A stretch of DNA of 43,802 nt from positions 1 through 43,802 of the forward strand of contig JAULBX010026763.1 in assembly GCA_032358255.1 (NCBI GenBank), in the 5' to 3' direction. The position numbers and the translations under genes were made by a program. The DNA is from Heterotrichella gracilis. Lineage: Eukaryota > Sar > Xanthophyceae > Tribonematales > Xanthonemataceae. The notes beneath the pieces were generated by a model, which was not told the origin of the DNA, did no database searches, and saw nothing but the letters and a program-made list of their open reading frames with translations. This document shows positions 758 to 38,256 of this stretch, piece after piece (positions within the stretch are counted from its first letter, which is position 1; each line of letters starts with the position of its first letter).

Positions 758-3375
758 TCAACACCCCTGCTGGGTGGAGCTCAGCCCCACCCTCACGTCC
801 TCTAATAGTCGCTTCACCTGACTGGACGACAGGGGCACTGCGGGGACTGCACCATAGCACTGCAGAGCAGGGGGGTGCTGGGGTGAAAGGTATGGCCTTG
901 ATGGGATGGATGGGTGAAGGGTGTTGGTCATGAGAATGCTGCCCTGAAAGTGAAGGGCCACTAATACAGATACTGGAGACTGGTGTACTGTGCCTGAAAT
1001 TGTGAGATATTGCGCATAATTAGCACATGGGCAGGTTTGTGGCATTGCATTATATGGATAGCATGTGGAAAATGTTATAAATTATCTTTGAAGGGAGAAT
1101 TTTACTGATGACAATACTCTAGATGCAGAGATATCTCACCACCTTGCAGGTGCGACATTTACGATGCAAGAGGGGTTTTGTAGCAATTGGCGCATTAGCT
1201 TGCGTACAAAATGCAGTGCTGTCTACTTTTGTTATATGAGGCAGGCATCTGGGCTCTTTAACAAATTCAGCTTGATAGACTAACTTTTTAAAACGTTGTT
1301 CAAGTTGTTCTCTGACGCACAACCTGATTTGTCTTCTTAGTAAATGTGGGCAAAACAAAAGCATAGGCAACCGACTCTTCCCCTTGCTGTCGTACATATG
1401 TGCAATACATGTAATTAACTAACCCCCCGTACTGGCGATAAAGATTGGGCCCCATTAATGCTATAATTATTTTCTGCAAAGAGGCCCAACTGCTATCCCC
1501 AGTATGGCAACGTATGGTGCAAGGTGGCAGTGGTATACCACCGTCACGCAGCAGAACTGCTAGAGCAGATAGCAATTGCAACGAAAAGGAGGGTTCAGGG
1601 TTGAGAGATGCAGCAACGCGCTGACCCATATAAATAGGAATCTGCGTGGTAATGGTGACGAGTAGCGGTGACGAATATCCTAGGTGACATTGTGCTAAAA
1701 CACCGGGGCCTTGGTAACCAGGTAAGGCCTAGGTCACTCTCCAAGTCCTCGCCATTGATGTAAGTTCACCCATCTCCCCTGCACCCACCACCTATGCGGT
1801 ACTCACCGGTCCTGGCCATGATGGGTCGTCGCGATTGCGTGCGGTGACGTGGATGTGCAGCTGGGACACCTGCGGCAGCACAAACCCTTGCTTAGGGTTA
1901 CACCACACAATCCTCAACTCCTTTAGGGTTGAGATGGCACAAAAGCTTCCTTGAATTAAACCAGGCAACCCGTCCTAGCAGGGTATAAACCCATATAACC
2001 CTTCAACAGGGCCACATCTCCACTATGTATAGCAAACACCATTGCGGGATCAGGAATAGATTGGAACAGGAGGATTTCACTACATCACAACATGCTGAAG
2101 TCAATCTACCTTCACTCAAGTCTGTACACAGTCCTGGCCACAGCCGATTGGATAGTGCGGTCAGGACTGAACAAACCCATGATCAATACATCCGATACAG
2201 CAATGCCTGAATATCGTTCCCAGCAAACGTGGTGACAGCAAAGCTAGGAGCAAGGGTGGTGTAAAAGGGTCGATGTGGCCACGGACCACGTTGTCAATAG
2301 CAGCAATCTTGATATTGGAGGGTTCAGGTTGTACCCCAAACCCTACACCCTGAGCAGGGAGTGTACACCCTACACCCTACTCAGCGCTGACCACAAACTC
2401 TAAACAGTGACAGTACACCCTAAAACCTACTCCAGCCTTGACCACGCACCACGTTCCCGATGGTGGCTATGTTGATCTTGTAGGGCTTGAACAGGTCCTG
2501 CAGCAGCAACATTAGGTGTCAGGTACATGCATGCCGAATAATCCAACCCACGAGTTGGACCCAAACGGCTGCTGATTGCAGTTGTCAGATTTCATGACCC
2601 AAAACCATGTGGTACGCCCGATGCAATTGGCAATATGCAACCACCCAACACCATGTTACACCCCTTGTGATCCTTGCACCTCCCCAACTGCACCATCTTG
2701 GCAGCACTGGTCACCCTCTGCCCACATCACCATGAGCCCTAAACCCCTAATCACCCAACAATGAAACCCCCTTGCTACCCCCTTATGATCCCTGCACCTC
2801 CCTACCTGCACCACCTTGGCAGCACTGGTCACCTCTTGCCACATGACAGCCTGGTCCTCCCCTGACAAGTCAAACACCTCCCTTAGGTGGTTCTGCAGGA
2901 AGGGTACATGTAAATGAAATGATTGGCGATAGGGCAGGTATATTGCAAAAAAATGTTCCAAACATGGCGATTTCAAACACTTCCCTTAGGGTTCTACAGG
3001 GTTGAGGAGTTCAGTCAGTTGGTGTAAACTACATGCATTATGCAGCAATACAGCCAGATTAGCAGCAGGGAGGTCAATATCAGTGCGCGTTATATTATGA
3101 AAGCCTGCCGCCGTCGTATTCTCAAGTACGGCCCTTGATGACAAATAGCCGTGGGCCTACTAAGGCGCCACCATTTCACATGGCACATGCCCGCCAAAAA
3201 CGCCAAGCATGCAAAACTCCCTCCGTTTTCGCCTTGCACCAGCACATAGCTGCCAGATACCCCTCTATTTTCCCGCCCCTATCACCCCACCCACCTTTCG
3301 CGGCACCAGCACCAGCCAGCACGGGTAATTGGCGTCGTCCATCAGCAGCACCTTGCACAGCTCAAGATCAACCAC
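758..3375 (-). CDS. HIT (histidine triad) family protein, 5' partial
   Basis: Five exons on the minus strand, in transcript order: 3375-3295, 2892-2806, 2497-2450, 1869-1807 and 859-758 (stop TGA). All are flanked by AG and GT and every junction is phase 0. The 126 joined residues read like the small bacterial/plastid-type HIT proteins: a first strand containing KVLLMDDANYP and LVLVPRK, a helix LREVFDLSGEDQAVMWQE, then KINIATIGNV, the catalytic QLHIHVTAR, RDDPSWPGP and a C-terminal helix with SSSQVKRLLEDV. In this subgroup the motif is H-x-H-V followed by A-R rather than a full third His. HIT proteins are nucleotide hydrolases or transferases; the substrate here is unknown. The first exon, with the start codon and the usual N-terminal strand, was not found between 3376 and about 5000. 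Copies of exons 2 and 3 lie in the introns. The family call is firm; the 5' end is incomplete. Confidence 0.8.
2272..2318 (-). repeat. Intronic echo of HIT exon 3 with its donor
   Basis: This is a diverged copy of 2441-2484. It still reads IKIAAIDNVVRG against INIATIGNVVRG across the exon end and donor. It lies in the intron that follows the true exon. Confidence 0.65.
2661..2735 (-). repeat. Intronic echo of HIT exon 2, donor destroyed
   Basis: A copy of about 2779-2850, covering the end of exon 2 and the start of its intron. The donor GTAGGG has become TTGGGG and the frame is shifted, so this copy should not be spliced. Confidence 0.7.
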
Positions 3376-6300: not shown

Positions 6301-6614
6301 GCGGGATGGCGATGTGTGCGGGGCAGGCACCAGGGACTAACAACGGGCCAAAGCAGGAGGCGCAGGTGTGTTACCGTACAATGAATATTGATGTGCACAC
6401 TTCAAGGGTAGAGGGGGCAAAGGGGGTGGGTAAGCCAAGTGCCACATGGGCTGAGCTGACCCAGCAGGACCTGAAGTTTGCGGAAGGTCAATTGATCATA
6501 TAAACATGGCTTCAGGCAGTGCTTTGTGAGCTGTTGACTGATTCTTTTTGTTGTCTTACCTTGCCCCAAGAACAATTGTCTTTGAATGCACACCCCTCCC
6601 CCGACTCTGTGCAG
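3376..6614. other. Intergenic / 5' flanks of the divergent HIT and USP genes
   Basis: No gene could be supported. The missing first exons of the minus-strand HIT gene and the plus-strand USP gene should lie somewhere here. A TTTAGGG-type doublet sits at 3754-3770. Minus-strand peptides around 5640-5720 (PPDWVVEADTL) look mildly coding-like but could not be tied to a family or to splice phases. Confidence 0.4.
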
Positions 6615-6640
6615 ACCTCTTACAAGCGCCTCCTCATATC
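6615..6640 (+). repeat. Echo of USP exon start (short)
   Basis: TGTGCAG followed by ACCTCTTACAAGCGCCTCCT resembles the true exon start at 7014 (TSSLSYQHLLL). This is the most diverged of three copies of the same acceptor region. Confidence 0.45.
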
Positions 6641-6728: not shown

Positions 6729-6808
6729 GGTTAACCCACTTTAGAAATCAAGATTTCTCTTCATAGTGGGTTAACCCACTGTAAAAATCAAGATTTCTTT
6801 TTAAGTTC
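6729..6808 (+). repeat. Two-unit tandem repeat, about 41 bp
   Basis: Two near-identical units each begin GGTTAACCCACT and continue with an A-rich AATCAAGATTTCT segment. They lie in the block upstream of the USP exon that is itself duplicated. Confidence 0.7.
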
Positions 6809-6912
6809 CAAAATTTAAATCCGCCCCTCCCCCTTCTCCCCCTGTGCAGACCTCCACCGTGAGCTACCAGCACCTCCTGCTGGCTATTCTGGGTGACAAC
6901 CCCTTTTCGTGA
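6806..6912 (+). repeat. Echo of USP acceptor and exon start
   Basis: Copy of about 6970-7075. It carries the preceding pyrimidine tract, the TGTGCAG acceptor and the first 18 codons (SYQHLLLAILGDNP), then diverges and reaches a TGA stop at 6910-6912. If its acceptor were used, the product would be truncated. Confidence 0.75.
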
Positions 6913-7013
6913 AAGGCTTACTGTACTTCTCTTCATGGAGCCCACTTTTGTTCAAATTATTCTATATATTCCAAAATTTTTATCCGTCCCTCTCACCCCC
7001 CCCTGTTGTGCAG

Positions 7014-8785
7014 ACCTCCTCCCTGAGCTACCAGCATCTCCTGCTGGCCATCCTGGACGACAACCCCTACCTAGGCGACGGCTCCAAGCAAGCCTGCGCC
7101 ACCGCTGCCACCCTGGCCGTTGCCAACACCAGCCAGCTGACGGTGCTACTGGTGGATGAGGCGGCTGAGGTGGAGCAGCGCATGCAGCAGCTGGAGACAA
7201 TATCATGGTGCGTGTGGGTGCAAACAGTCCTACCTAGATGCAAAATGGTTACCCATTTTGCTGTTAAATACCACCTTCCCATTTTAAATTCATTTGTGGA
7301 TGAGGCGGCTGAGGTGGAGCCATACGCGCATACAGCAGCTGGAGACGATATCGTGCTGCTGGTGCCTGCGTGCAAGCGACCCTACCTAGGGCGTCCATTT
7401 TGATTTTTGATTCCATGCGTATTATTCCTAATACCATTTGTATCCACTTTAATTTCGAGTTTACTTGGGAAGGGTTTGGGGACCAAGGCTTGCTTGGCAT
7501 GGGGGGCGTCAACCCACCCAATAAGAATATGCGCGCACCCTGCAAATACATATGGTCCACAAACATACACGCACACACACACCGCATTTGGGCTAGTCCT
7601 TGCACCTGTGTGCGGTGCGAGCACCTGAAGCAGCAGGGTTGCCAGGACTTCACGTTCCTTGAGAAGGGTTTAGGGTGTGGGATTTGGGTTTTGGGTTTTG
7701 TCTGGCCCAAGTGAACGGGGGCATGGCCACCTATCCACCCAACCCCCACCCAACCAGCATGCAATGCACATACACACCCACAAGCACCCACCCTGCACTG
7801 TGTATCCATATACACCCAATGAGCACGCACGCACACCCTGCACCCATGCTGCACCCTCCCCCCCGCACGTTCACCATGGACGCAACGTGTTGACCTTTGT
7901 ACAAGTGTGTGGCGCAGGCATCTAAAGCAGCAGGGTTGCCAGGACTTCAAGTTTTTTGAAAAGAGCGGGGACCACACCAAGGGACAGGGGTCGGTGGTGG
8001 TAGGTGAGTGCGCAAGACTGGACGGGTGGGGTGGGTGGGGTTTAGGAATGACCACGCAATGTTGGGGAGCGGGGGGTGCGGGGGGGAGTACAAAAAGCAA
8101 ATCGAGCGGGGACCACACCAAGGTGCACGGGTCGGTGGTGGTAGGTGGGTGTGCAAAATATAAGTGCGCAGGGATCATTGTGGCAGGCGGTGCTTGCATA
8201 CTGCCCACATCACATGCGCCAATGCCCGTATCACATGTACCCTGCCACAGTAGCATGTGTCCGCGGAGCATTGCTGGACGCACATTGTGAACTGTTTGTG
8301 CGTGTGGTGTTGCCGGCATCCAAACTGCTATAACAGCCCCTGGTTTCCTGCGCGTGCTTGGCAACCCTTGCTGCACAGGCACTCATGCCTGAACATGCGC
8401 GCCATTTACATGTACTCTTGCATCACAGGCCGGGGTGCCCACCCGCAAGTGAAACGGCGGATGCAGTAGGGGCACACCCGTTGATCACAGTCGAGACACC
8501 GAACGACCTAGCTCAATCTTAAACCCCAAACCCTGATAAACGCCCTTCATAGACTGGGTTTCAGATTTTGTATTAGGGTAATAATTAATTTGTGGTAAAT
8601 AATAACTTTTTGTTTTATTTCTTGGGAAATGGGCTAAAAACATCTGAGTTCCACACGCAGGTGATGCAGCGGATGAGGTGGACGCGGACCTGGTCATCCT
8701 GTCCAGCTCAGCGGTGCATGACAAGCTGGTGGATGCAAACCTGCTGGCCGAGTTTGTGCCCTGCCCCGTGCTGCTGCTGCCGTGA
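7014..8785 (+). CDS. Universal stress protein-like (USP/UspA fold), 5' partial
   Basis: Three exons: 7014-7207, 7918-8003 and 8661-8785 (stop TGA). Junction phases agree (phase 2, then phase 1) and all sites are GT-AG. The N-terminal exon reads LSYQHLLLAILDDNPYLGDG, then a helix rich in Ala, then LTVLLVDEAAEVEQRMQQLE. The middle exon gives WHLKQQGCQDFKFFEKSGDH and GSVVVG. The last gives DADLVILSSSAVHDKLVDAN and ends AEFVPCPVLLLP. This matches a plant and algal USP-like class with an alpha/beta Rossmann-type fold. The glycine-rich ATP loop of ATP-binding USPs is not visible, so it is probably a non-ATP-binding member. A first exon with ATG is expected upstream but was not identified. Five intronic echoes surround the exons. 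A TGTAA at 9603-9607 may be its poly(A) signal. Confidence 0.75.
7296..7400 (+). repeat. Echo of USP exon 1 end plus intron start
   Basis: Copy of about 7153-7255. It repeats GTGGATGAGGCGGCTGAGG and the QQLE codons, and carries on into intron sequence including CCTACCTAG. The duplication therefore spans the exon-intron boundary. Confidence 0.8.
7610..7672 (+). repeat. Echo of USP exon 2 start, acceptor altered
   Basis: Copy of about 7908-7968 that still reads HLKQQGCQDFTFLEK. The acceptor GCAG has become GCGAG and the copy breaks off into GGTTTAGGGTG. Confidence 0.8.
8098..8160 (+). repeat. Echo of USP exon 2 end with donor
   Basis: Copy of about 7970-8025. It repeats SGDHTK..GSVVVG and keeps a donor-like GTGGGT after VVVG. 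Confidence 0.8.
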
Positions 8786-11276: not shown

Positions 11277-13749
11277 TGACGGGGGACACAACCCTGGCAG
11301 CATACCTCCACTCCAGGTACGGTTTGCCACAGGCAGAGTTTAGGGTTTAGGGTTTAGCATATAGGAGTAGGGGACAGCACCCTGGCAGCGTACCTCCACT
11401 CTGGGTAGGGTTTGCAAAAGGCACTGTTCAGGATTCAGTTTTAGGGGACACTATTCTGGCAGCATACCTCCACCACAGACAGGGTTCAACCGCAGTGATG
11501 GTCATTGGCAATATTTATGGTTTAGGATGCACCACCCTGCCAGCATACCTCCACACTGCAGGCGGGGTAAGCCGGCGCACATACAAGCACTGGAATACAT
11601 GTAAGTACTAGCTTAAAAGTACAAGTACAACATACCATCACGGTAATGCATTGCATGGCAAACATCTGTTGTAGATGTGCATGTGGCTTGATTTGCAGGG
11701 GGAGTAGCATAGAGGCTGGCATCCCGCTGGGGAGGTTGGCAGCAGGGGGGACGGGGGGGACCGCTAGCATAGAGAAAATCATGGAGTACTCTCCTGCTGA
11801 GCTGGCAGAGATGGCAGGTGAGTGAAAATCATTCACGGGAATCATTCGCAGAAATCAGGCCGCCACATGCATGCGCTCAGCACCCATGCAACTATCACAC
11901 AGCATTGCACCACGAGATGATGTACCACGGTACCCAAACTGCGCGCCCATATCCTTCAAACGATAAGTCTATTTGAATTTTAAAACTTTAATACCCAAAA
12001 TTCGACACCTCACCCCCCACAGGCCAACCCCACACTGCCCGCGCCCTGCGGTCCATACAGGCGGGTGTGCCGCTGCAATGGTCCCGTGACACACACCACC
12101 TGCTGCCCAAGGATTGCAGACTCAAGGTAGGCAAGCTAGCCAGCTATAGCTAGTGGGAAATTACTAGCGCCAGTCTATAGCCAGTCATGAGCAAACCTAC
12201 CAGCCCCAAGGCGTTGACGCACTCTGCATTATGGGTTTATAACTTATGAAGGGTATACCCATTTCCAACACAGTCATTACCCAAGTTTATTCATTTCAAA
12301 TAAAATTTGAGCTGCATTTCAACCATTGCCGAAACAAAGACGATGCAACGCAGACAGTGGGGTCATGCATACAGATGTAGTGCACCGGACTTCATGTATT
12401 TATGTATACAACGTCGTTTCCAAATATATACTTCCAATGAATCCAACACAGGTGCAGCAGGCAGTGGAGTCGTGCATCCACAGCGCCTGGCATGTGCAAT
12501 TACCCGCCCTCACTCGTGAGGCTATCATCACCCACCTGGTGGAGTCCATTGTGAGGGAGAGTGTGTGGACGGGGGTGGATGTGCGTGTGTGGCAGCAAGG
12601 GGGTAGCTTCGAGGGGGTGGTGGCAGGGGAGTGGATAGCAGGTGCGCGGTATACCGCGGTAAGACAGAGCACTTGCCACTTAGGTCAAGCTACCCCTGAA
12701 GCTGAATTGCTCTAGCAAACACCCTAGGGCCTTTAAAAGTGAACACCCATCTCTTATTCTGAGTTCTGATTTCTCGCATGGGACATAGTGAACACATGGA
12801 GGATACATGTTGAATGCTGCTATGTGTGTGTACTGCATGCAACTGATTGCCTTTCCGCCTGCAGTTGTCATGTATGATGGTCAGGGGTGTCGATAGGGAT
12901 TCTAGGTAACATTCACCAATCCCTGTTGGCACCCCTGACCATCAGCACGACAAATTGATGATCACACAAGATCAAGAGGATCGTGATGATGTCTCACTAC
13001 AATGACATGATGCACATGTGCCATGGCAATGCATTGTGAAATTCATTCGCATTAACTCATGAATGATAACAAATACTTGTCCACAATTTAATGTTGTGCG
13101 CCCTGCCCTGCGCAGAGGTGGAGGCCCTAATGCAACGGCGGCGCCCCGAGAAAAAATGCAAAGGAAAGGGGAGCGGCGACGCATGGAACAGGCCCCTCAT
13201 AGAGTTCCAGCTGCGCATGGCTGACCCAGCGGCTCCCCAGGGGGGAGGCCCTGCAGGCGCCCAAGGTGGCTGGTGGCAGCGGGGGAAGGGGAGGAAGGTG
13301 CTTGCTCTGGTGAGTGCACCTCAACCCTGGCAATGGCAATGCAATCTTGCACACCCGGCCATGCCAATGTGTACAGATGAATTTGTTGGTTAAATACGAA
13401 AGGGTCGGTTGAGGATGAGGTACCTGCAGTTGGACAACAGCGGGTGGTCTGGGGTTGCGGGGGAGAAGGGTGCTTGCTCGAGTGTACCCCGTGTCTATCC
13501 AAATCACGCCACCTTGTCACCTTGCCCAGGCTGGTTTAAATTTCAGGGTTTACCTGTTGAGTTCCAGCTGTGGGTGCACCTCAAAAGTCCATTCCCGGCC
13601 ATTTCCCCTATGTATTACATTCTTTCCTTGAGCCCCTTCTCCTCCTGCAGGGCCTTGCCTGCTGCCTCACTGCCCTGGGGCTGGGCATCACCCTGACCTC
13701 CAGGCGGGGCACCAGAGGGGCTGCAGCCCGGGTGTCGGGGTCCCAATAA
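11277..13749 (+). CDS. Unrecognised protein with C-terminal membrane segment, 5' partial
   Basis: Six exons agree in phase: 11277-11316, 11699-11817, 12023-12126, 12452-12641, 13116-13309 and 13651-13749 (stop TAA). About 248 residues are visible. They start TGDTTLAAYLHSR, then a Gly/Ala stretch, SIEKIMEYSPAELAEMAGQP, a helical part with QQAVESCIHSAW and REAIITHLVESIVRES, and a basic stretch QRRRPEKKCKGKG. The last exon encodes a hydrophobic run (GLACCLTALGLGITL) followed by Arg residues, like a tail anchor with positive residues after the membrane segment. I do not recognise the family. The first visible exon begins in mid-codon, so the start lies upstream. Its first exon is echoed three times in the following intron, and intron 4 holds a 27-bp hairpin. 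It converges with the minus-strand gene at 14651-15644. Confidence 0.6.
11369..11565 (+). repeat. Three tandem echoes of a 40-base exon
   Basis: Copies at about 11369-11410, 11442-11480 and 11523-11565 repeat the exon 11281-11316 (GGGGACA, then CTGGCAGCATACCTCCAC). They sit at a spacing of about 75-90 bp and carry adjoining intron (GGTTTGC, GGCA, TTTAGG). Donors differ: GTACGG in the first (true) copy, GTAGGG, GACAGG and GCGGGG in the echoes. TTTAGGG repeats at 11339-11357 lie between copies. Confidence 0.8.
12875..12944 (+). ncRNA. 27-bp hairpin in an intron, small-RNA precursor or MITE-like
   Basis: Arms 12875-12901 and 12918-12944 are separated by a 16-base loop. On the plus strand all 27 positions pair; three are G-U wobbles and the rest are Watson-Crick. 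The hairpin lies in the intron between exons 12452-12641 and 13116-13309 of the host plus-strand gene, so it would be transcribed in the pairing orientation. It could be a microRNA-like precursor, a short inverted-repeat element or a chance fold; nothing here shows expression. Confidence 0.45.
13428..13490 (+). repeat. Echo of exon 5 end in the gene at 11277-13749
   Basis: The stretch GGTGGTCTGGGG..GGGGAGAAGGGTGCTTGCTC resembles the end of exon 13116-13309 (GGCTGGTGGCAGCGGGGG..GGTGCTTGCTCTG) and ends near a GTGTAC. Confidence 0.55.
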
Positions 13750-14650: not shown

Positions 14651-15644
14651 TCACACCATGACCGCCTGCTGTGCGCTTGCCGCCGCCAGGTCAGCCGCCG
14701 AGCCCGTCATCGACCTTCCGCCAATCACCACCCGCCCACCCCTGCCACCAATCACCACCGTGCCCCCGCCGCCGCCAATCACCACCCGAGGCCCGCCCGC
14801 CGCCAGCTGGGGCCCAATCTCAGCCATGGTTTGCGCCATTTGCTTATCCACCTTGCTCTTGACGTGCCCCCGCATGCCCATAGGGAACGCGTTGGTGATC
14901 TCCGCCCCAAGCGCCCGGGAGTACCCCTCCGGGTCAACGGCGGGAGAGGGGATGGTGCGGCCAGAGGTGAGGGTGATGGTGCTGCCCATCGCCCTCTCGA
15001 CGTTGGCTCCGGTCTTCAAGTCGGACAGAGCAGATGCAACCTCCCTGTCCACCTTGGTCTTCACGTGGCCCCGCATGCCCATCGGGAAGGCGTTGGTGAT
15101 CTGGGCCCCAAGCGCGTTGGCGTACCCCTCTGGGTCCACGGCAGGGGAGGGGATGGTTGCGCCTGAGGGGAGCTGGACTGTGGCGCCTCCGTAGCGAGCC
15201 GCGGCGTATGCTGATGCGCTCATTTCGGACGCACAGTTCAATCCTGCCTGGAAGGGAAGGGTGAAATGGTCTGAGGGATCTTATGAGGTGAGTAAGATCT
15301 CACATTTAGGGGAAAAGCGGAACAGCAACGCTAAAGTACAGGCCCACTGTGTGATGAAAAACTGTGAACAAACCAGCTTCCAGTTCATGGTGTGCAACTG
15401 GGCTAATTTTGGGCTATCAATTTACCCCCTCCTGACATGCCCTACACAAGGGAACCGAGCCTGCCCCAGACAAGGGAATGAGGCTTAAACCGCCCTTAAC
15501 AAGGGAATCAACGCCGAAGAGAAGGTAATCAGGCCTAAAATACCCTAGACAAGGGCATCAGGTATTGCCTACCTGTTGCTTGCCTGCCGCAGCCAGGCGG
15601 GCAGGGGAGTCGTCCAGAACTGAGGCGGACACGCAGTTGCCCAT
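14651..15644 (-). CDS. MGNC-start lipid-anchored protein with internal repeat, unknown function
   Basis: Two exons, 15644-15573 (24 codons) and 15247-14651 (198 codons plus TGA), joined in phase 0 by a GT-AG intron, give 222 residues. The N-terminus MGNCVSAS fits N-myristoylation at Gly2 and palmitoylation at Cys4, so a membrane-face location is inferred. The body has two ~60-residue repeats, about residues 45-111 and 112-170. Each contains TIPSPAVDPEGY and ITNAFPMGMRGHVK, followed by a helix with KVD. The C-terminal part is Gly-rich, with VVIGG three times, then GSAADLAAASAQQAVMV. I do not recognise the family. The repeats, the open frame and the consistent splice make it a convincing gene. 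The long plus-strand frame opposite it is a shadow. Confidence 0.7.
15437..15561. repeat. Degenerate ~32-bp tandem repeat in intron
   Basis: The motif CAAGGGAATCAGGCCTAAA-like recurs four to five times, each unit holding a variant of ACAAGGGAA. It sits in the intron of the MGNC gene, just beyond the donor of exon 1. Confidence 0.6.
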
Positions 15645-25744: not shown

Positions 25745-25800
25745 GAGTGGACTTGCCCTGCTCCCTTTCCAACCCCCTCACAATGGAAGAGAACACTAAG
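25745..25800 (+). repeat. Echo of LEA-like gene leader and start codon
   Basis: ACTTGCCCTGCTCCCTTTCC and CACAATGGAAGAGA mirror the leader and start at 25866-25912 (ACTTGCCCTGCTCGCCCTTC, CACAATGGAGACA). The copy opens with an ATG and runs only about 11 codons to a stop. Confidence 0.75.
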
Positions 25801-25899
25801 CTTTTCCAAGGGGGCTAGGTTTGCGAGGTACAGGACGTAACGCTGTGTTTGTGCACTCTGTGCAGGACTTGCCCTGCTCGCCCTTCCAACCCCTTCACA

Positions 25900-26771
25900 A
25901 TGGAGACAATCAAGGACGCAGCTGCCAGTGTCACTGCTGGCGTCACAAGCTTTGGAACTACCGTGGCTACAGGCACCGAGACCTTCTTCAAGGACGCATC
26001 GACGGTGATGAAGACAGTGGGCGAGGACTTCATGTCCACTCAGAAGAAGAACGTGGGCGAAATCCACCAGACCATGGACCCAGCCTATGCCAAGGTGGGT
26101 CGCAGAAACTACTTGAGACAGCATGTTACTTGAGAGTGCCGACAGTGGGTGGCCAAAAGGGACTGTTAAGGGAGCCTAGTGAGTGCCAATTGGTTGTTGT
26201 TGTCACAAGGCTAGTAGCCCAGCGCTAGTCTGGTGGGCAAAGCTTGTGGGAGGGTTTTTGTAAACCATCACCAGACGACCAATGCTTTGCAAAGATGAGT
26301 TAGGTAGCTACAATCCCGCCCGCTACACAGCAAGACCAGCAGTCTGCGTATGCATATCACGGGGGCGTGCAGGTTCGCCCACCACTGATGTATGCCCGGG
26401 TTGGATGTTGTAGAGGGTGGCCCATGGCCCAACGTTAGCCTGTGCACTTGTGCAGGTTATTGAGCAGAGCGTGGCGAGTGATGTTTTGGAACGTACCTGT
26501 AACGACAGGGTCTGAATACCCAAACCAGGGTTTGAGTGGTACTGGGGCTTTACACCCACACATGGCCCAAACATGGCTACGCGTTACAGTCATGGCTGCA
26601 GGAATTGCACTGGGGGCACAGGCTACGCGCTTTGCCAACCAACACACGTGTGCTGTGTGTGCGCAGGAGGTGGACGATGCCAACGCACAGAAGATCGGCA
26701 AGATCGCCCAGGACCTAACGGCAGAGGGGAAGGCCGAGCTTGCCAAGGCCCATGCCCAGGTGCAGGAATAA
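25900..26771 (+). CDS. Small amphipathic, LEA-like protein
   Basis: Two exons, 25900-26094 and 26667-26771 (TAA), joined in phase 0, give 99 residues. The start METIKDAAASV follows a CACAATGG context, and its leader begins just after a TGTGCAG acceptor near 25865, suggesting an upstream 5' UTR intron. The chain is Cys-free and rich in Ala, Thr, Lys and Glu, with helix-prone parts such as TETFFKDASTVMKTVGEDF and IGKIAQDLTAEGKAELAKAH. This is like hydrophilic LEA or other amphipathic helix proteins; the family is a guess from composition. An in-intron candidate exon after the acceptor near 26457 (VIEQSVASDVLE) does not fit the phases and was left out. A TGTAA at 27147-27151 is a likely poly(A) signal. 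Confidence 0.6.
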
Positions 26772-28421: not shown

Positions 28422-31400
28422 ATGAAGACCCTCAAGGGTGGCACAGCTGTCTCAGCCCAGCTCCTTCCTACAAGGCAACCCTTCACCGCCTGCCCACCCA
28501 GGCATTGGCCTCCACGGCGAGAGGGGCTTGTGGCAGCAACCCACAGGACTGGCCCTCAACCACCCCAAGGTACCTCACGAGCCTCTGACCCACGGCTGTA
28601 TTGGGATACTTGGCCCACATGCTGCACATGGCAGCGTTGGGCGTCCATTCGTTGAACCCTTGGCCCCACATGTGACAGCGTTGGGCGTCCATTGGTTGCT
28701 GATTTTGTTGCTCCACATGGGCTAACGCCATGGTCTATTGCCTGTCGTTGACCGAGAGATACCCTAGCCCACCTGCTGCTGACTTGGCAGTGTTAGGGAT
28801 CCAATGGGTTTCTGGTTTCACAAAGGAAGTGATCCACACGGGCTAGCGTAATGGTCACTTGCCTGTCATGGACCGAAAGGTATCCTTTATGACCTTGTCT
28901 TGCATGCTGGCACTCATCTACACTGCGTCAACCACCAGGCAACCCATCCCTAGGGGTTGGTGCCGTCCTTCTGACAAAGTACAAACAAGCCGCATGCAGC
29001 TGCATCCCGCGCATTCCCCTTTAGCACCGGCTTGTGCACGTACAAACCCGTACGTGTGTGTGACCTTGCAGGGGGGTATGGATTTGGGGAGGGTGGCGCA
29101 GAGGAGTGGGTGGCCAGCTACAGGAATGGCGGGGAGGCAGAGCCACCGCCAAGTGGCAATGGAAATACGCCACCGAACAGGTATGGGGCCAGATAGCTAG
29201 CAGGAAACCCCAGACCAGACTGTGTGCCAGCCCTTGCCTAGGGTTTACAGGCATGGCGTCCTAGTCTAGCGCTCGCAGCCATGGCGTTCTGGCCCAAGGA
29301 GTTTTATCATGGCACCCTCGCCTAGGGTTTTCGAGGTGGGGTTTGTGCCTAGGGTGCCTTTGCAAGCGCTGCAGCACCAACGCATGCGCGCATGATACTA
29401 CCCCCTGCAGGCCCAGCTGCCTTGCTTGCTTAGGGTTTTTTGGGCGTGGTGGCTGTGATTAGGGTCTCTTTCACCCCTTTCACACATCCGGTATCCCCCC
29501 CTGCAGGTCCAGCTGGGATGCCAGGGAGGCAGCAGATGAGAAGGGCGAGGGTGGGGACTACCTCTACCAGCTAGGCAAATCAGACATCAACCTCAACATC
29601 GACACAGGTAAGGGGGTGGGGGCTGCATGCATTTTGGACCCGAGGCTGTGGGTGGGTGGGTGCCTCCAGCATGCACAACACCCAGCTGCTAGATCGGCTG
29701 CCATCAGGGTTTATTAAAGGTCCATGAGGGTTAGCACTTGCACAGTATATGTGCGCTGAAAATAGAGGCTTAGTGGGTGGGATATGCGTTTGGGCCATCA
29801 GGGTTGCACACCTGGTATGTGTATGGGGGCGAGGGCGCCGCACGCGTGGCACATTGCCTGCAAAATAACAGGATAATGATGACAGACATTGTCTGCATGG
29901 ACTGCATTGCAATGTGGTGCAACATTACCATGACACCTGTTTGGTATACCCCCCTCCAGGCCAGAACATCCAAAACCTGGACAGCGTGTTTGTGGGCAAC
30001 TTCCTGGGGCACCAATCCGACATCGCGGATGGGTCCCTGCGGGAGTACGAGTTCCGGACATTCAACAACCTGGTGGGGGACTACTATGTGGCCCCGGCGT
30101 TCCTGGAAAAAGTGGCGGTGAGTCCCTACTTGCGTGGCACATGTGGTAAGAGGGTGAAGGCATCACTGGGGAAAAGCGGCGGTGCGTCATTCGTCCACAG
30201 CCTATGGCACATTTGATGCATGCTGCAGTGTTTGTGCACACACAGTTAGGGGCACCACCTTTGTTGGCCATGGTATGCTAGCATTCAAAGCTGTGCGCAA
30301 ACTCATTGAGTATGTTGGGGGACACTCTTGTTGAGGTGTGCATTTTTGTTGAGGTATTTCTGGACCAGATCTCCTGGATCACATCCCCTGTTTTTATCCC
30401 CGCCGCCAAACCCCTTCTCTGGGACGCGCACCATTAAAGACCATGGTGGCCACCTCCCAAGCCCCGGCGTCCTTGCTGCCCTGCCCGTTTCACTCCCTCT
30501 CCCCCCACAGTATGTGGCAATACCTTGAAGTCGTTGTGGCCACATCCCCTTGTGCTGACCCCTTCCTTCCCCCCTTGCAGATGCACATCACCAAGAACTA
30601 CCTCCAGGCCCTGGGGTACTTTGACGACGCCACCAAGGTGTCCTTAATGCTGGGCATTTGGGGGGGCAAGGGCCAGGGCAAGACGTTCCAGACGGAGTTG
30701 GCATTCAAGAAGCTAGGGTAAGGCTGACCATCATTTCAAGCCCCAGGTTCAAACAAGCCGTAAGGTTGGTATCCTTCTTAGGGGTTCCACGCAGTACACG
30801 GACCCTCACCACAAAAATCCTGCACCCTCATCGCTTACCCTAATTTCTTGATGGCCAGCTTTGTCTGGAATGCCTTGTCCTGGCCCTTGGCCCCCCAAAC
30901 GTTAAGGGTTTCCACGCTGTGGGGATGTCCAAACGCTAGTTTTACCGCCAAAACCCTCACCATTGGCCTGGCCCCCAGGTGTGAAGCTGTGGTGATGTTT
31001 GCAGAGGAGTTCGAGCATGAGTGGGCAGGCACCCTCAGGATGATGATGTCCAAACCCTAATCATACGCCCTACATTTTTAAGGTCACCCCTACAAAACCT
31101 CCCACTTCTCGCTCTGCGCAATCCTGAACCCGAAACCTTATATTTGAACCCCATCCCCCCAGGTGTGAGGCTGTGGTGATGTCAGCGGGTGAGTTGGAGC
31201 ATGAGTGGGCGGGCACACCTGGGAGGATGATCCGCGAGCGGTACCGCAAGGCGGCTGAGCTGTCAAGGGTGGGTGGGATCGGGGATGTTATCAATAAATT
31301 CAACTTAGGCTGAATCATTGCATGTTGTATGCATCTGTCAGTCTCCGCATTGAAGGATTCTTTTGAACGACAGTTGTGGGGTACACCCATTGTGTGGAAA

Positions 31401-34386
31401 AACAATGGAATTTGGGTATATTTGTGGTATTGGAACGAACCGCTAGGCGGCTGAGCTGTCAAGGTGGGTGGGGGGTGAGGCGGGTGGTGGTGGTGTGGTG
31501 GGGGGAAGTGCTACGCATGTGATTGAATAGTCTCTTTCCAAAAAGGGTGATCCAATTTTGGTACTGCAAAGGGGTGCAAAGGCAATGGGTGGGGGGCGAA
31601 GCAGGTGGGGGGTGGGAGGAGGGGAGGGGGGGGCGCGTGCATGCCTGCGTTTCGAGGGGTGAAGCAGGGCGGCTGAGCTGTCAAGGGTGGGCTGGGCTGG
31701 AAGAGCATTTCTGCAACCTTGATGGGATTCTTATATCCCTATGGCAGGGGCTGTGCAAGCTGGCCTTTGGTGATCAATACTGAAGGCGGGTACATATACC
31801 GTAAACCCTTGCTTGTATTGTCATCTTATTCTTTTCATCTAATACCTTAAATCCCTGTGGCAGGTGCGGGGCAAGCTTGCCTGCCTGATGATCAATGACA
31901 TCGACGCGGGGCTGGGGCACTTTGAAAACACACAGGTGGGTGGTGGTGGCGGGGGTGGTAGTGGTGGCTGGTGGTGATTTCGGTGGTGGTGCTGCTGCTT
32001 TGGCGCTATTCAGTCGTTTGCACCAACAAGAACACCCAATGCACCCAAAGGTACCACAGTTCTCTTGTCCCTCGCACACTGCTTTGAACACTGGAAGACA
32101 CGGTTTCTCCTGCCATGTTCCATTGCCCACCCCACCCCCTGCTTCAGATTGAACCTGGATTCGTCCACCTTGCTCTAATCACCCCACCCATTTTATGGCA
32201 TTGAGTTGAACATGGATCTCCCCCCGTTGCCCCAATTTCCATCCATGCCCCACCTCCCCTGCACAAGTGCCTGTGAACAATCAGATCGTGGTGGGCGCCT
32301 TGGTGCACATTCTGCTCATGTAAAGTATTACTGAAATATCCAAATATCTAGTAAATTTACAGATTCAAATACCACCCATGGCCTACCTTCCCCCTGTGTG
32401 CAGGTGACTGTGAACAACCAGGTCGTGGTGGGCACCCTCATGAACATCTGCTGATGTAAAGTAGTACTTTACTATGCTTACTATGTTCAAATGGTTAATA
32501 TTGAATGTAAAATGCCACCCATGCCCACCCTTCCCCCTTGTGCAGGTGACAGTGAACAACCAGATTGTGGTGGGCACACTGATGAACATCTGTGATGATC
32601 CTGAGAGGGTGAGCATCGGCCAGGACTGGCGGGAGGGGGACTATGTGCGCAGGACGCCAATCGTGGTCACAGGTAGGATCAGTCTGGCTGCACCTGTTGC
32701 TCGGAGATCAGAGGGTGGACCAAAATAGCCTTGCTAAGGGTGTAGGGGTTAGGGTTAGGGTTTTGGTGGGCCGCTGATGAACATTTGCGATGATCCTGAG
32801 CGAGTGAGCATTGGCTAGGACTGGCGGGAGGGGGACAAGTGCGCAGGACGCCAAACGTGGTCACAGGTATATTGTGAACACTCATAATCAAAGGTGTGAA
32901 ATACTCTGGAATTACAGGTGCGATCGGTTATAATCACAAGTGCGATTGGGCATAATTACAGGTATGATTGGTCATAATCACAGGGTTAATCGGTCACATT
33001 CACAGCTGGTATCGGTCAGGAAGGAGGGGGCAGGACGTGATTGCACATCATGATTGATCACACATCATGAACCACCCAGGAAGTCACTCAATGCCATTGT
33101 GCGTGGCCCCCGTATGTAATGACCTGAGCAAGATCTCTCCCCCATCTGCTGCGCAGTGGGCGCACGGAGCAAGTACTACTGGAAGCCAACCAGTACCTGA
33201 AAGCTGTAAAATGACTGGGTAAATTAGGAATTTCTCATTACAAGTGATAACTGATACAATAACCAGTTTGTTCACCTCGCAGGCAATGACCTGAGCAAGA
33301 TTTTTGCCCCCCTGCTGCGTGATGGGCGCATGGACAAGTACTACTGGAAGCCCTCCCGGGAGGACCTGGTGTGCATCATACTGCAGATGTACCGGGATGA
33401 CAACATGACGCGCAACGATGTGGAGTTCCTGTTGGATCGCTTCCCCAAGCAATCGCTGGACTTTTTTGGAGCCCTTCGGTGCGGATTTGTTACCCATATC
33501 CCCCCCCCTGCCACTAACTACAACCACCGGTGACTTTTTTTAAAAAAATTTTGGTATATATATTAGGAATAACAAAAACCTAATAGAGCAAAACTCAAAA
33601 CCCTAACCACCGTGTTCCTGCTGGACCGCTTCCCCAAGCAGTCGCTGGACTTCTTTGGAGCCTTCGGTGCGGAATTTTTTGATCAAACTAACTCTGATCA
33701 TTCTTCCGTTGGGATACTTGTTAGGAAAAAAGTCTTAGTAGGATATCATCAAAACCATATACCCTAAACGCCTCCCTCGCAGGTCCGCCACCTATGACAA
33801 GCAGATCCTGCAGTGGATCAAGGGGAGCCGAGTGCTGATAAACCCTAGTAGGGCACCGCCTCTAAACCCTAAAACCCTATACTCCTCCCCGCAGGTCCGC
33901 CACCTATGACAAGCAGATTTTGCAGTGGATCAAGGGGGACGTGGTACAAGGGGAGCTGAGCGCCGACAACTCAGACATGCAGGCCCTGGGCAAGCGGCTG
34001 CTGAAGAAGGATAGGTTGCCCACCTTTGAGCCGGTAAGTGTGAAATGGGAAACCTAGGGTAGGGTTGGTGTCAGGTTGACACGGCTGTTGGCATGCACCC
34101 TGCACCTCTTGAAGGGAGCGCCTGGAATGCAATAGGAGACGGTCAATGCAATTCCCAGCACCAATTCACACCCTATATGCAAGAACAAAGAGAACAGAAA
34201 CCGTGCGTGTAAAATTGCTCTTGACCGCCTCTCTCCCTCACCCAGGTTGACGTGTCTGTGGGCATGCTGCTGGCTGAGGGGGAGCGGCTGGAGATGGAGC
34301 AGGAGATGGTGAACACAATCAGGCTGTCAGGGGAGTACCTCAAGAAAAGCAAGGGGAAGGGCTCGCTGATCGGGCTCAAGGGGTGA
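28422..34386 (+). CDS. Rubisco activase-like AAA+ ATPase, chloroplast
   Basis: Eleven exons with agreeing phases: 28422-28569, 29072-29180, 29507-29607, 29960-30117, 30581-30717, 31163-31268, 31864-31935, 32546-32672, 33283-33478, 33895-34033 and 34246-34386 (TGA). They give 477 residues. The first ~50 are Arg/Ser/Thr/Pro-rich and look like a transit peptide. DYLYQLGKSD, NFLGHQSDIADGSLREYEF and YYVAPAFLEKVA precede the AAA+ core. Walker A is GGKGQGKT (200-207), Walker B LMINDIDAG (261-269), sensor 1 TGND (319-322), and Arg332/Arg335 lie in RDGRM. DFFGALR and a C-terminal helix with QEMVNTIRLSGEYL follow. The SAGELEHEWAGTPGRMIRER and VRGKLACLMINDIDAG wording, which differs from canonical Rubisco activase, points to the plant/algal activase-like paralogue (Arabidopsis At1g73110 type). 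Whether it remodels Rubisco or another target is not shown. The introns are packed with echoes. Confidence 0.85.
30834..30908 (-). repeat. Inverted echo of the Walker A exon
   Basis: Read on the minus strand, this is a copy of about 30647-30722: VWGAKGQDKAFQTKLAIKKLG then GTAAG, against IWGGKGQGKTFQTELAFKKLG then GTAAGG. It lies in the intron right after exon 5, in reverse orientation, so the pre-mRNA could fold on itself here. Confidence 0.85.
30973..31056 (+). repeat. Echo of exon 6 acceptor and start
   Basis: CCCCAG then GTGTGAAGCTGTGGTGATG.. copies 31157-31235. It reads CEAVVMFAEEFEHEWAGTL against CEAVVMSAGELEHEWAGTP and keeps a good acceptor. Confidence 0.85.
31440..31695 (+). repeat. 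Two echoes of exon 6 end with donors
   Basis: GGCGGCTGAGCTGTCAAGG followed by GTGGGT-like sequence recurs at about 31446-31472 and 31669-31692, after the true 31250-31274. Both carry a donor-like GTGGG. Confidence 0.85.
31730..31783 (+). repeat. Echo of exon 7 acceptor and start with stop
   Basis: ATCCCTATGGCAG then GGGCTGTGCAAGCTGGCC copies 31851-31880 (ATCCCTGTGGCAG then GTGCGGGGCAAGCTTGCC). It reads KLAFGDQY then TGA. Confidence 0.75.
32255..32460 (+). repeat. Two echoes of exon 8 start
   Basis: Copies at about 32262-32330 (acceptor AG followed by a degenerate VNNQIVVGALVHI) and 32390-32460 (perfect GTGTGCAG acceptor, VTVNNQVVVGTLMNIC, then TGA) precede the true exon at 32546. Both end at ATGTAAAGTA, so they are also copies of each other. 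Confidence 0.85.
32766..32878 (+). repeat. Echo of exon 8 end with donor
   Basis: Copy of about 32574-32680. LMNICDDPERVSIG..DWREGD is followed by a one- to two-base loss, an in-frame TAG where Gln stood, and a retained CACAG then GTATAT donor. Confidence 0.85.
32914..33020 (+). repeat. 22-bp minisatellite, five units
   Basis: Units begin at 32914, 32936, 32958, 32980 and 33002 (the last partial). Each begins ACAGGT, ACAAGT, ACAGGG or ACAGCT and most hold CGAT/TGAT and TAATC. The first half of the unit resembles the exon 8 donor region (ACAGGTAGGATCAGT at 32669-32683). Confidence 0.8.
33095..33205 (+). repeat. Echo of exon 9 start
   Basis: AATGACCTGAGCAAGAT, then CTGCTGCGCAGTGGGCGCA and AAGTACTACTGGAAGCC, copy 33285-33352. 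The acceptor CGCAG has become ATGT, so there is no AG directly before the copy. Confidence 0.85.
33608..33680 (+). repeat. Echo of exon 9 end, one-base deletion
   Basis: Copies 33418-33484 (FLLDRFPKQSLDFFGA), with GCCCTTCG shortened to GCCTTCG before the GTGCGG donor. The deletion would shift the frame if spliced. Confidence 0.85.
33765..33842 (+). repeat. Echo of exon 10 acceptor and start
   Basis: CTCGCAG then SATYDKQILQWIKGS, nearly identical to the true 33889-33942 (CCGCAG then SATYDKQILQWIKGD). It then runs to TGATAAACCCTAG. The CCTAAAAC motifs before each acceptor are also duplicated. Confidence 0.85.
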
Positions 34387-35771: not shown

Positions 35772-38256
35772 ATGGCGACATCAATACTTTGCGGCAGTGG
35801 CGTTGGCGTCCAAGCACGGAGAGGTGAGAGGTTTGTCGAATAGCTATTGTTCCATGCATATGCATGCATAGTGGGTGGATTGGAAAGGCAACCCACAACC
35901 GCCCTTGTAACCATGCAGCCCTTGTAACAACGCATATGAGGTTGATGGTTAGCTTAAAGCTTGGTCTGCTGGTTATTGGGACGCTTTTGCTTGTCGAGTA
36001 CCTCGCTGCCCTCATGCATTGCCAACCAAACCCAGGCATGGGTAACCCTCAGTTGGGGATCAGGGGTTCCTAGGCTCAGTCAGAAACGTTTAACCTGTAT
36101 TTCATGCCTGTGCAGTGCTGCCAGGTGGCGCCTCCAGCGCCTTCCTCCCCTCGGCCCTTCCCCCCCTGCGCAGCTCCTTTGCACACACCCTGAAGCCAGC
36201 CCTGGGGTCGGCGCGAAGCGGGCGGGGATTGGTGCAGACACAGGCGGTGAGTGCACCCACAACCTAGGGTTCATAAGAGGTGGGGGCGGTGCCTGTTCTT
36301 GTTCTTACTCCTTTACACAAAGCACAGGGTTCAACCCCTCTAGGGTTTATGAAAATCCTGCCAGCCAGGGAATGGGGTGCCCAAAATGTACAGGCATTCC
36401 TGGCATGGCGAACATCCACCTTGTGCCATATTATGTCATGCATCGAAAAGCATGACTCCATACTCTTTCTCGCTTACTGCCATCATCTTGCCTTATTCCT
36501 TAGACACTCACTGCACAGTCCGCAGTGATAGGTCAGGCAGGACGAAATTAGAAAATGCAACGGGAATAAGGCAATAACAGGTCCTATTGCTGCCTTATTA
36601 CCTCTGCTGTATGGACCCGGCAACTGGTACTCCAAATCCAGTGTAGTGCGTGCCCCCCGTTTTAACCCACCCCCCACCCGTTGCCATGCAGCTGTTCACA
36701 TTTGGCAACAAGAAGAAGGCAGCTGCCAAGCCCAAGTATGAGACTGTCATCCCCTCCCCATCGTATAACATACCATTCTGGCTGCTGGGTAAGTCATTTT
36801 GCAGCAATGTGACAGGGCCATATTTTCGTAGACACCCACAGCATCCCCACAGGCCAACAAATGCTTTCCCAAATATGTCGTTAAGTTGCAGGACCACATC
36901 CACTGGTTCGCCACATCATTCCCTCCCTGTCATGTGATATACCCACCTGGTTGCTGGGGGGACATGGGAGCATTGGCCAAACTCCGGCCATTTTTTTGTA
37001 ATACGTAGCGTGTTTCATTGCGTTACCCAAACACCGATGGCTGGGCCATTTTGCACATTTGCAACAATGTGACAAGGCCATATTTTCCTGAGCAACCACA
37101 TCAACCCTACAGGTCAATAAATGCTTTCTGAACCTGTCAACAAATGCCCTCGCCAGAGACCCTAGTCAAAACCCTTGTTTGTGGTTTGCGCAGCCACGGC
37201 CGCATGGGGCGGATTTCACGACCAGCCTGTGCTGACGGGGGTCACCGGAATCCTGGGCCTATTTCTATCGATCCAGGCCTCCAGGGTCAAATTTGTGTTT
37301 GATGACGAGGCGCTGGAGGTGGTGATTGGGGAGAAGAAAAAGGTGCGCCATGGAGAGGGGGGATGTGGATCAGTAAAAATGGAATTGGGCGTCTACACCC
37401 ACCATGCTGAGCTCGGTGGGTAAGATTGCGTGTGGGCAATTGAAGGCAACGTTAGGCACGTACGTGACAAGTTTACTGACCACTGTAAATCCTACTGTTT
37501 GGGTGATCATGCTATCACTGTAATTACCCACCCACCTGTAACTTTCGAGAACGTGATTGTTGGCAGAGCGTTCCCTCCTTCGCCATCACTCACTGCGTAT
37601 CCGACGCACCAGCACTGCAACTGAACATGGCAGCCACCATGCCTCTCCCCTTTTGCACCTCTTGCACTATCCCCCTGTCCCTTGTACAACCTGTGCTCCC
37701 CTCATTATCCATCGCCCACCCGTTACCCACCCCCTCGCAGGAGTCTGAGAACGTGTTTGTGGGTGGGGCCAACCGCTGGAGCTACGATTCGTTTGTCAAC
37801 TGGGAGTTCTGGTGGCCAGGCTTCCCGGTGCTGGTGTACTTCAAGGTAGGGTTGGGGCTAGGGTATGGGTGAGGGACCTGGCAGGGTTTCCAATGCTGGT
37901 GTGCTTTAAGGTAGGGTCGTCGCTAGGGTATGCCCTAGGGTTGCGGCAGGGTTTCTGTGTGTGGAATACAGCATTTACAGCATACTGCATACAGTACGTC
38001 AGGACAGTACGACATTATCTGCCACTGTTGACCTAACTTCCCACTTGTGCATCACATGCAAGTATATTCTTCCGTTCACAGGTGATTGTATGTGATCATG
38101 TCTTTTGTCACTATACAGGAGACCCAGACCAAGCCCGAGGGCCAGATCCATTTCTTCCCCATCATTTTCGACGGGGGGGTCTTGTACAAGGTCATGTCGG
38201 AGCGATGTGGGGCATCGGCCACCAGCGGACCCAAGCCAAAGGCAGCCAAGAAGTAA
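35772..38256 (+). CDS. DUF3119 family chloroplast membrane protein
   Basis: Six exons with agreeing phases: 35772-35823, 36116-36246, 36692-36788, 37194-37342, 37741-37845 and 38119-38256 (TAA), giving 223 residues. The first ~60 residues (MATSILCGSGVGVQARR, then Ser/Arg/Ala/Pro-rich) look like a plastid transit peptide. The mature part starts TFGNKKKAAAKPKYETVIPS. Two hydrophobic stretches follow, around residues 86-99 (IPFWLLATAAWGG) and 105-120 (PVLTGVTGILGLFLSI), then VKFVFDDEALEVVIGE, NVFVGGANRWSYDSFVNWEF, WPGFPVLVYFKETQT and a conserved IHFFPIIFDG. DUF3119 proteins occur in cyanobacteria and plastid-bearing eukaryotes; an Arabidopsis member (ENA) is linked to the acetyltransferase NSI, which is a recollection not tested here. 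The tail is Lys-rich. A TGTAA at 38628-38632, about 370 bases past the stop, is a plausible poly(A) signal. Confidence 0.8.
36925..37135 (+). repeat. Echo of exon 3 end plus over 100 bases of intron
   Basis: ATACCCACCTGGTTGCTGGGGG copies the exon end ATACCATTCTGGCTGCTGGG. Further on, GCAACAATGTGACAAGGCC and a ..CCCTACAGGTCAATAAATGC block copy the intron stretch at 36802-36870. The donor GTAAGT is lost. Confidence 0.75.
37523..37570 (+). repeat. Echo of exon 5 start, acceptor destroyed
   Basis: TTACCCACCCACCTGTAAC then TTTCGAGAACGTGATTGTTGG copies TTACCCACCCCCTCGCAG then GAGTCTGAGAACGTGTTTGTGG at 37721-37762. The acceptor CAG has become AAC. Confidence 0.75.
37872..37935 (+). repeat. Echo of exon 5 end with donor
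   Basis: GGCAGGGTTTCCAATGCTGGTGT and TTTAAGGTAGGG copy 37815-37866; LAGFPMLVCFK replaces WPGFPVLVYFK. The GTAGGG donor and the following GCTAGGGTATG are kept. Confidence 0.85.

Follow-up and report, generated by a model that had tools for sequence, protein, structure and literature searches.

Small tandem duplications at staggered DNA breaks have been explained by filling in of both overhangs followed by joining of the ends, a process that requires Ku, CST (a telomere fill-in complex) and Pol alpha (accessible part of PMC8355091). Interstitial telomeric sequences are short telomeric arrays found at double-strand breaks; in the available portions of two reports (PMC2246262, PMC7215372), target duplication alone accompanied 6 of 130 loci in rodents, 4 of 25 in primates and 3 of 66 in the horse. 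Direct repeats, located inside the intron or shared with one adjacent exon, were described in new introns of Daphnia, where they were regarded as scars of staggered breaks and lengthen the introns (excerpts of PMC4202315). In AGGT intron gain, exon sequence that contains splice sites undergoes tandem genomic duplication, as reviewed in PMC3443670 (in extract).

In this work, we analyzed a stretch of 43,802 nucleotides of DNA from Heterotrichella gracilis, referred to as the window. A first-pass annotation had proposed that introns and flanks of seven genes contain degenerate copies of the adjoining exon ends, for which we use the term echoes. Three features absent from that annotation emerged from our analysis, namely that the copies are mostly not plain tandem duplications, that the DNA between them is enriched in telomeric repeats, and that their intron-side end lies near the splice junction.

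Materials and Methods

The assembly searched comprises 68.5 Mb in 903 contigs, and the window corresponds to C425:1-43802. It was compared with itself by blastn (E<=1e-3), with five dinucleotide shuffles (500-bp blocks) and the reversed sequence as controls. The larger sample consisted of 19 loci of this genome, i.e. the window and 18 others, denoted by L numbers; L006, L009 and L026 were excluded from it, as were L001-L005, which lay outside the scan. Tetranucleotide make-up of L006 and L009 was unrelated to that of the window, and zero direct pairs closer than 500 bp were present there, while L026 showed a tetranucleotide correlation of 0.57 with the window and contained distant pairs only. 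L001, L002, L006 and L009 differ strongly in composition and seem, on this ground, to come from other organisms present in the assembly.

Eight gene models were obtained in the window by a self-trained gene finder run with an intron-length penalty, without which the plus-strand genes merge into one. Pfam backs the HIT, DUF3431, Rubisco activase-like (RCA) and DUF3119 models, and gave no match for the remaining four of the eight. All exon limits are predictions: those of RCA were compared with homologues, those of HIT, DUF3431, RCA and DUF3119 were assessed by Pfam, and the rest are as given by the finder alone. For the DUF3431 model, no related protein was recovered at E<=0.001, so that its exon boundaries depend on the finder together with the Pfam match. 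Rfam gave no match in the window at gathering thresholds, nor in four further loci of the genome.

Results

Self-comparison of the window yielded 33 pairs, 29 direct, all spaced by 65-418 bp, and four inverted (two palindromes, one pair 16 kb apart and one spaced exon echo), compared with 0 pairs in five shuffles and 1 in the reversed window. The excess of self-similarity over shuffled sequence, named as a check by the first-pass annotation, was thus observed, and the description of the copies as mostly direct and 60 to 500 bases from their source agrees with these numbers. The phenomenon extends beyond the window: the 19 loci contain 124 direct pairs spaced by less than 600 bp, compared with a single spaced inverted pair; another 19 inverted matches, either palindromic or overlapping, were tallied separately. 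As some of the 124 pairs are members of multi-copy families, they cannot be treated as independent. They fall into the classes E-I (exon with intron; 72), GG (26, a class that may conceal unmodelled exons), EE (10), II (10) and E-G (6). Alignment length was 40-100 bp in 78 of them, and identity reached at least 95% in 8; this scarcity of near-identical pairs may reflect a slowing process or repeats collapsed in the assembly. The youngest pair, 1108/1323 in L018, is 100% identical over 62 bp. Density of echoes is uneven, with 21 in 10 kb of L013 and zero in L007, L010 and L020.

An exon edge was present in 66 and absent in 14 of the 80 exon/intron relations, from which 20 relations exonic on both sides were excluded. 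Recurrent local duplication including exon-intron boundaries, as suggested in the first-pass annotation, is supported. Echoes with an acceptor edge lay upstream of their source in 33 of 33 cases (two with both edges) and those with a donor edge only lay downstream in 33 of 33, a rule partly forced by geometry. Exon-edge pairs outnumber intron-only pairs 72 to 10 (72/82 = 0.88, other classes dropped), whereas simulated random placement on the present genes gave a share of 0.28-0.46, and reproduced the observed one only with introns of about 70-100 bp. A pure detection effect is thus insufficient to explain the exon-edge excess with present introns.

In the RCA gene (29507..34386, plus strand), modelled with exons at 29507-29607, 29960-30117, 30581-30717, 31163-31268, 31864-31935, 32546-32672, 33283-33478, 33895-34033 and 34246-34386, five of the eight introns contain echoes. 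The joined protein of 390 aa matches PF21228 and PF00004 in Pfam; its identity with Rubisco activases of green algae reaches 69% in the 120 matches listed out of 2689, a resemblance by which the host would be taken for a green alga. Upstream (acceptor) echoes on the plus strand are located at 30972..31047 (source 31156-31231, spacing 184, 83% identity), 31730..31778 (31846-31896, spacing 116, 80%) and 33749..33825 (33861-33937, spacing 112, 88%). Downstream (donor) echoes on the same strand occupy 31439..31472 (31243-31277, spacing 196, 94%), 31653..31696 (a second copy, from 31235-31277, spacing 418, 86%), 32761..32869 (32565-32675, spacing 196, 89%; preceded by an 85-bp filler with telomere-like repeats) and 33614..33679 (33425-33491, spacing 189, 90%). 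The start of an exon, 33285-33352, is echoed at 33118..33187 (plus strand, spacing 167, 86%) with the edge itself outside the alignment, and the exon end 30657-30722 is copied with 83% identity at 30834..30899 on the minus strand, no other spaced inverted echo being present in the window. Two acceptor echoes of 32523-32592 are present within 32244..32450 (32244-32313 and 32381-32450, plus strand); the two inter-copy stretches are similar on visual inspection, so the second step seems to have been a genuine tandem duplication. Two of the RCA echoes were called exons by the gene finder. An array of a 22-bp unit in about 4 copies also lies within an RCA intron, at 32910-33005. Copy spacings in the five echo-bearing introns total about 1661 of 2676 bp, so that about 62% of the DNA in these introns would come from copying if each spacing equals the net gain.

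Elsewhere in the window, the HIT gene carries a donor echo at 2651..2730 (minus strand, source 2770-2847), with telomere-like filler at 2731-2769, and the USP-like gene an acceptor echo at 6806..6904 (plus strand, source 6969-7068) and a donor echo at 7296..7389 (plus strand, source 7152-7237), together with the pairs 7600/7897 and 7963/8104, whose exon is uncertain. Echoes of the DUF3431 gene (17871..21896, minus strand, gene model and Pfam) were located on the minus strand at 18515-18546, 18973-19045, 19107-19158, 19336-19378 and 19766-19867. Next to the echo at 19766-19867, positions 19868-19916 are telomere-like filler, and another echo (17728-17814, minus strand) lies beyond the end of the model. 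The 110-bp pair at 22697..22912 (minus strand, 89%) is a true tandem copy and probably represents an exon that the DUF3431 model lacks. A direct pair, 25749-25787 / 25865-25904 (25749..25904, plus strand, 93%), is found at the start of the LEA-like model. In the DUF3119 gene there is an intron-only pair, 36798-36868 / 37058-37128 (36798..37128, plus strand, 83%), and a 65-bp tandem copy at an exon end (37817..37955, plus strand), the source copy of which has 29 bp of exon. Thus, among the seven genes to which echoes had been ascribed, HIT, USP-like, DUF3431, LEA-like, RCA and DUF3119 do have them, within the gene or next to it, while the repeated unit at 11282..11558 (plus strand), with a TTTAGGG array at 11338-11357, falls outside the gene models. 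The pair 14847/15048, an 84% DNA repeat of 125 bp with a spacing of 201 in a single-exon open frame (14651-15223, minus strand), was ruled out as an echo, being a coding repeat within one open frame.

Other repeats are present as well. A high-copy repeat with a (CTAA)n tail is represented by short pieces at 19155-19249, 6405-6477 (truncated at both ends) and 3008-3065, and also in L041, which on our reading resembles the 3' terminus of a LINE and for which Rfam gives no match. A short repeat at 18148-18236 is 99% identical to sites on C467 and C900; it may be part of the same element as the piece at 19155-19249, since the two are about 550 bp apart on C467.

Mismatch rates at codon positions 1, 2 and 3 were 0.089, 0.092 and 0.171 (110/1233, 113/1231 and 210/1226) in 78 pairs (76 distinct echo starts, 3690 exonic sites), which is what would be predicted if one copy is neutral and the other constrained. 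Twenty-nine of the 78 echoes are broken, 14 by a stop absent from the source exon and 22 by a frameshift (29 by either). The echoes are therefore dead, and neither the codon-position pattern nor the broken copies agree with purifying selection on both members of a pair. Intron parts of the aligned copies differ at 242 of 1564 sites (15.5%). When introns were matched to mRNA, an exon junction was spanned by only one of 86 matches, with 74% identity and possibly as two adjacent echoes. Retrocopying of mRNA was rejected on this count, and the source of the copies is DNA or RNA before splicing.

Eighteen edge copies are at least 90% identical to their source. They include 16-81 nt of exon (median 45) and a much shorter stretch of intron (median 9.5 nt), which is 1-17 nt long in 17 copies and 34 nt long in the remaining one. 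If the boundary could fall anywhere in the copy, 7.9 rather than 17 of the 18 would be expected (p 5e-6). Median lengths for all 65 edge-spanning copies are 44 nt of exon and 17 nt of intron. Among fillers scoring at least 22, the repeat has the CCCTAAA orientation relative to the gene in 9 of 10 on the acceptor side and the TTTAGGG orientation in 13 of 19 on the donor side (acceptor versus donor, Fisher p 0.005). Heptamers of the CCCTAAA strand peak 20-40 nt upstream of acceptors, at 37.8 per kb versus 2.7 for the other strand; values for C-type heptamers in this peak are 64.7 in echo introns and 20.6 in introns without echoes. Telomeric enrichment on the donor side is found mainly in echo introns. 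Judging from this placement, CCCTAAA repeats may act as branch-point modules, with CCCTAAAC as a candidate branch site.

Plain tandem duplication, in which the unit equals the spacing, predicts that the stretch between copies is homologous to the outer flanks. Among the 101 testable pairs, the spacer resembled the flanks at p<0.05 in 14, where 5 are expected; the median p was 0.33, and some homology may remain. When tandems were simulated with 50 of these pairs, the same test detected 50/50, 50/50 and 44/50 at 15.5%, 25% and 35% divergence. Thus, most echoes are not plain tandem duplications. Some true tandems do occur, as 11 of the 124 pairs exceed their own spacing in length. The filler of the youngest pair, 153 bp long, is non-telomeric and occurs once in the assembly. 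Its resemblance to pre-existing intron speaks for the copy having been inserted. No empty, echo-free allele was found in the genome assembly.

TTTAGGG is the telomere repeat of this genome, because 59 of 63 six-unit matches are no farther than about 280 bp from a contig end (7 starts and 5 ends) and all of these are oriented as at chromosome ends, reading CCCTAAA where contigs start and TTTAGGG where they end. The genome also encodes a telomerase RNA-binding domain. Throughout the 68.5 Mb there are 5629 two-unit matches, versus 5 for the reversed and 5 for the permuted motif, and 834 three-unit matches, the totals including overlapping matches and telomeres proper. In the 19 loci, TTTAGGG heptamers number 1219, compared with 122-289 for 19 other arrangements of the same letters. 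Their density per kb is 35.5 in intronic and 11.8 in intergenic spacers, versus 6.9 in other intron and 3.2 in other intergenic DNA; the repeats themselves are also telomere-rich (23.4 intronic, 42.4 intergenic), and exons have 1.2 outside repeats, 0.5 in repeats and 0 in spacers. A telomeric score of at least 30 was reached by 26 of 106 spacers versus 9 of 179 intron controls (Fisher p 3e-6), 7 of 461 intergenic controls and 1 of 120 from echo-free loci. The heptamer is absent from 55 of 102 spacers.

Telomeric coverage at 0-25 bp from the echo is 16% on the inner versus 5.5% on the outer side, and at 25-50 bp 10.6% versus 3.2%, the intron mean being 3.8%; over 100 bp the contrast is weak, since of the 78 echoes 34 have telomeric matches on their inner side and 28 have them on their outer side. 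Direct repeats flank 12 of 39 perfect telomere arrays, compared with 35 of 604 places drawn at random from those loci (p 5e-6), and inverted repeats flank 0 of the 39. In loci chosen by the array alone the corresponding values are 3 of 12 and 7 of 110 (p 0.06); a fourth case among these 12, L027, falls short of the cut-off of 50 with a score of 40. The pooled data give 15 of 51 arrays versus 42 of 714 random places. At L013 2271-2566, a 134-bp copy is followed by 27 bp with CCCTAAA repeats and a 135-bp copy. Echo density rises with the telomere density measured outside the pairs (Spearman 0.69, 18 loci). Telomeric repeats show no strand polarity within the spacer (mean position 0.45 vs 0.43, p=0.85), which argues against addition by telomerase at break tips, the expectation of polarity being our own.

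A copy is present in 53 of 151 modelled introns, whose median length is 405 bp versus 251.5 bp for introns without one; this contrast alone is no proof of growth, as longer introns give more room. The suggestion that local duplication is a mode of intron growth is supported; its extension to new splice sites is not. In an ungapped test, a repeat in register at donor and acceptor scored at least 14 in 1 of 172 introns versus 0 of 3440 controls, and at least 10 in 3 of 172 versus 26 of 3440, and the echoes decay as neutral DNA. Birth of introns by these duplications is thus unsupported. At L017 5100-5201, a 26-bp copy with AG|GT stands on either side of a 50-bp telomere-like filler; it is the best candidate for a precise new intron. 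In the case of introners, one sequence family makes the introns of many unrelated genes. Three window stretches compared with the genome, with scoring of the best candidates only, revealed short repeat pieces and no intron-long family.

Discussion

We give about even chances to the reading that echoes are scars left where staggered breaks close to an exon edge were repaired by fill-in, capture of filler and end joining. In its favour are the predominance of direct over spaced inverted pairs, the spacers mostly unrelated to the flanks, the telomeric enrichment of the spacers and of the inner side next to the echo, the direct repeats around perfect arrays, the array between the two copies in L013, the codon-position pattern and the correlation of echo density with telomere density. 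Two nearby nicks in opposite strands, or an equivalent staggered break, would open the DNA around an exon edge. Fill-in of both single-stranded ends would place the overhang, tens of bp comprising the exon edge and splice site, on both sides of the break, and filler, often telomeric repeat, would be trapped between them before the ends are joined into the order copy - filler - copy. The spliceosome would use the copy still attached to the remainder of the exon, so that the product would be tolerated, while the other copy and the filler would pass into the intron. The unused copy would then decay neutrally, leaving the intron longer by a copy and the filler. The observations themselves are paired direct copies separated by largely unrelated DNA, the telomeric enrichment of this DNA, the neutral decay of one copy and an origin in DNA or pre-mRNA; we infer the break, the fill-in and the insertion of filler, as well as the machinery responsible, for which the CST-Pol alpha route, as presented in the accessible part of PMC8355091, is a candidate. 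Against staggered-break repair stand the filler of the youngest pair, the absence of strand polarity, the 55 of 102 spacers free of the heptamer, the weak contrast over 100 bp, the p of 0.06 in array-chosen loci, the telomere-rich repeats, the exon-edge excess and the failure to find an empty allele.

It is possible, if doubtful, that breaks within introns were instead repaired by copying tens of bp from nearby DNA of the same strand, the template being the sister chromatid or reached by template switching at a fork; only the echo would then be new and the filler would be old intron. Such templated insertion would suit the single-copy filler of the 100% identical pair. Moreover, a 101-bp, 97% identical copy of an RCA exon (window 32552-32652) is present at C398:20286-20386 (L040), antisense within an intron of another gene (by eye) and with no direct repeat around, and this distant copy indicates that templated insertions do occur in this genome. 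However, telomeric DNA near the echo is denser on its inner side, intron-only copies should be common under templated insertion, and the local copies are nearly all direct whereas the one distant insertion is antisense. Ordinary tandem duplication by slippage or unequal exchange, with a unit equal to the spacing and an intronic part since decayed, seems improbable: 87 of 101 spacers have no flank match, though simulated tandems of up to 25% divergence were detected in 50/50, and the aligned intron parts differ by 15.5% only. It would nevertheless fit the 11 of 124 pairs longer than their spacing, the stretches 32244-32592 in RCA and 22697-22912, which resemble true tandem arrays, and the 14 of 101 spacers that match flanks where 5 are expected (median p 0.33).

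We also find it rather unlikely that copying was linked to splicing, with the junction directing the event through co-transcriptional breaks, R-loops or repair on unspliced RNA. The intron part of 1-17 nt in 17 of 18 young edge copies (p 5e-6), the concentration of telomeric heptamers within 40 nt of exon edges, chiefly in echo introns, and the direct strand would all agree with such a link; the first of these comes, however, from no more than 18 copies, all of them in gene predictions, part of the pattern could arise if intact splice signals were selected for, and spliced RNA leaves no trace (1 of 86 matches crosses a junction). Some echoes retain the frame and splice site, and the finder took two in RCA as exons, but a function as alternative, mutually exclusive exons is very improbable when mismatches at codon positions 1 and 2 are equal, the excess at position 3 is two-fold only and 29 of 78 echoes are broken. 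Unmerged contig ends can leave direct repeats around a join, and the assembly also has foreign contigs. Chance or an assembly artefact is nonetheless hardly credible, with 0 pairs in shuffles, with most pairs differing by 5-30% in a pattern set by codon position, and with no direct pairs closer than 500 bp in the compositionally foreign L006 and L009 of the same assembly. CpG-driven nicking was considered and rejected, since CpG observed/expected ratios of 0.65 in exons and 0.46 in introns reveal nothing specific.

We tentatively propose, with more doubt than conviction, that duplication is directed by the splice junction: cassettes of about 45 nt of exon edge and about 10 nt of intron would be copied outward with telomeric repeat between, and CCCTAAA would then provide ready-made branch-point and pyrimidine modules. 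If true, this would couple intron growth and the supply of splice signals through telomere-type break repair during transcription.

Intron growth is usually discussed in terms of transposons. Here, one small-scale, repair-like signature accounts for much of the length of introns; in the five RCA introns with echoes, the copy spacings sum to about 1661 bp out of 2676. The echoes are datable fossils of intron growth, including the pair 100% identical over 62 bp, and they offer a means of timing it, of examining whether breaks occur preferentially at exon edges, and of testing whether splicing signals can be supplied by telomere-type repair.

Each of the ingredients is known. The unusual aspects are how densely the echoes occur, that telomeric repeat serves as filler, and that 17 of 18 young copies end, on the intron side, no more than 17 nt from the splice junction. 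The earlier remark that no standard name exists is half right: the components have been published (PMC8355091, PMC7215372, PMC2246262 and PMC4202315, in their accessible parts), while no paper on exon-edge copies with telomeric filler, or on the components combined at such a density with breakpoints set by the junction, was among the matches listed, a search that covered few subscription journals and leaves absence unproven. With AGGT intron gain, as outlined in the extract of PMC3443670, the echoes share duplicated exon sequence including splice sites; unlike there, repeats in register at intron ends do not go beyond 1 of 172 introns. The Daphnia repeats measure 4-17 bp and belong to newly gained introns (excerpts of PMC4202315), whereas here 78 of 124 pairs align over 40-100 bp. 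Like the duplications in the available text of PMC8355091, the echoes are direct, local and tens of bp long (124 direct versus 1 spaced inverted pair); there the duplicate is immediately adjacent, whereas here other DNA, often telomeric, intervenes and the echoes gather at exon edges. Abutting copies, a trait of staggered-break small tandem duplication, are not the rule here (spacers match flanks in 14 of 101 pairs), and since the spacers are mostly unrelated to the flanks, the echoes represent at most a variant of that process with filler. With interstitial telomeric sequences they share an array identical to the telomere repeat of the organism. Compared with the loci in the available portions of PMC2246262 and PMC7215372, the present genome has 5629 two-unit and 834 three-unit matches, with direct repeats at 15 of 51 perfect arrays versus 42 of 714 random places.
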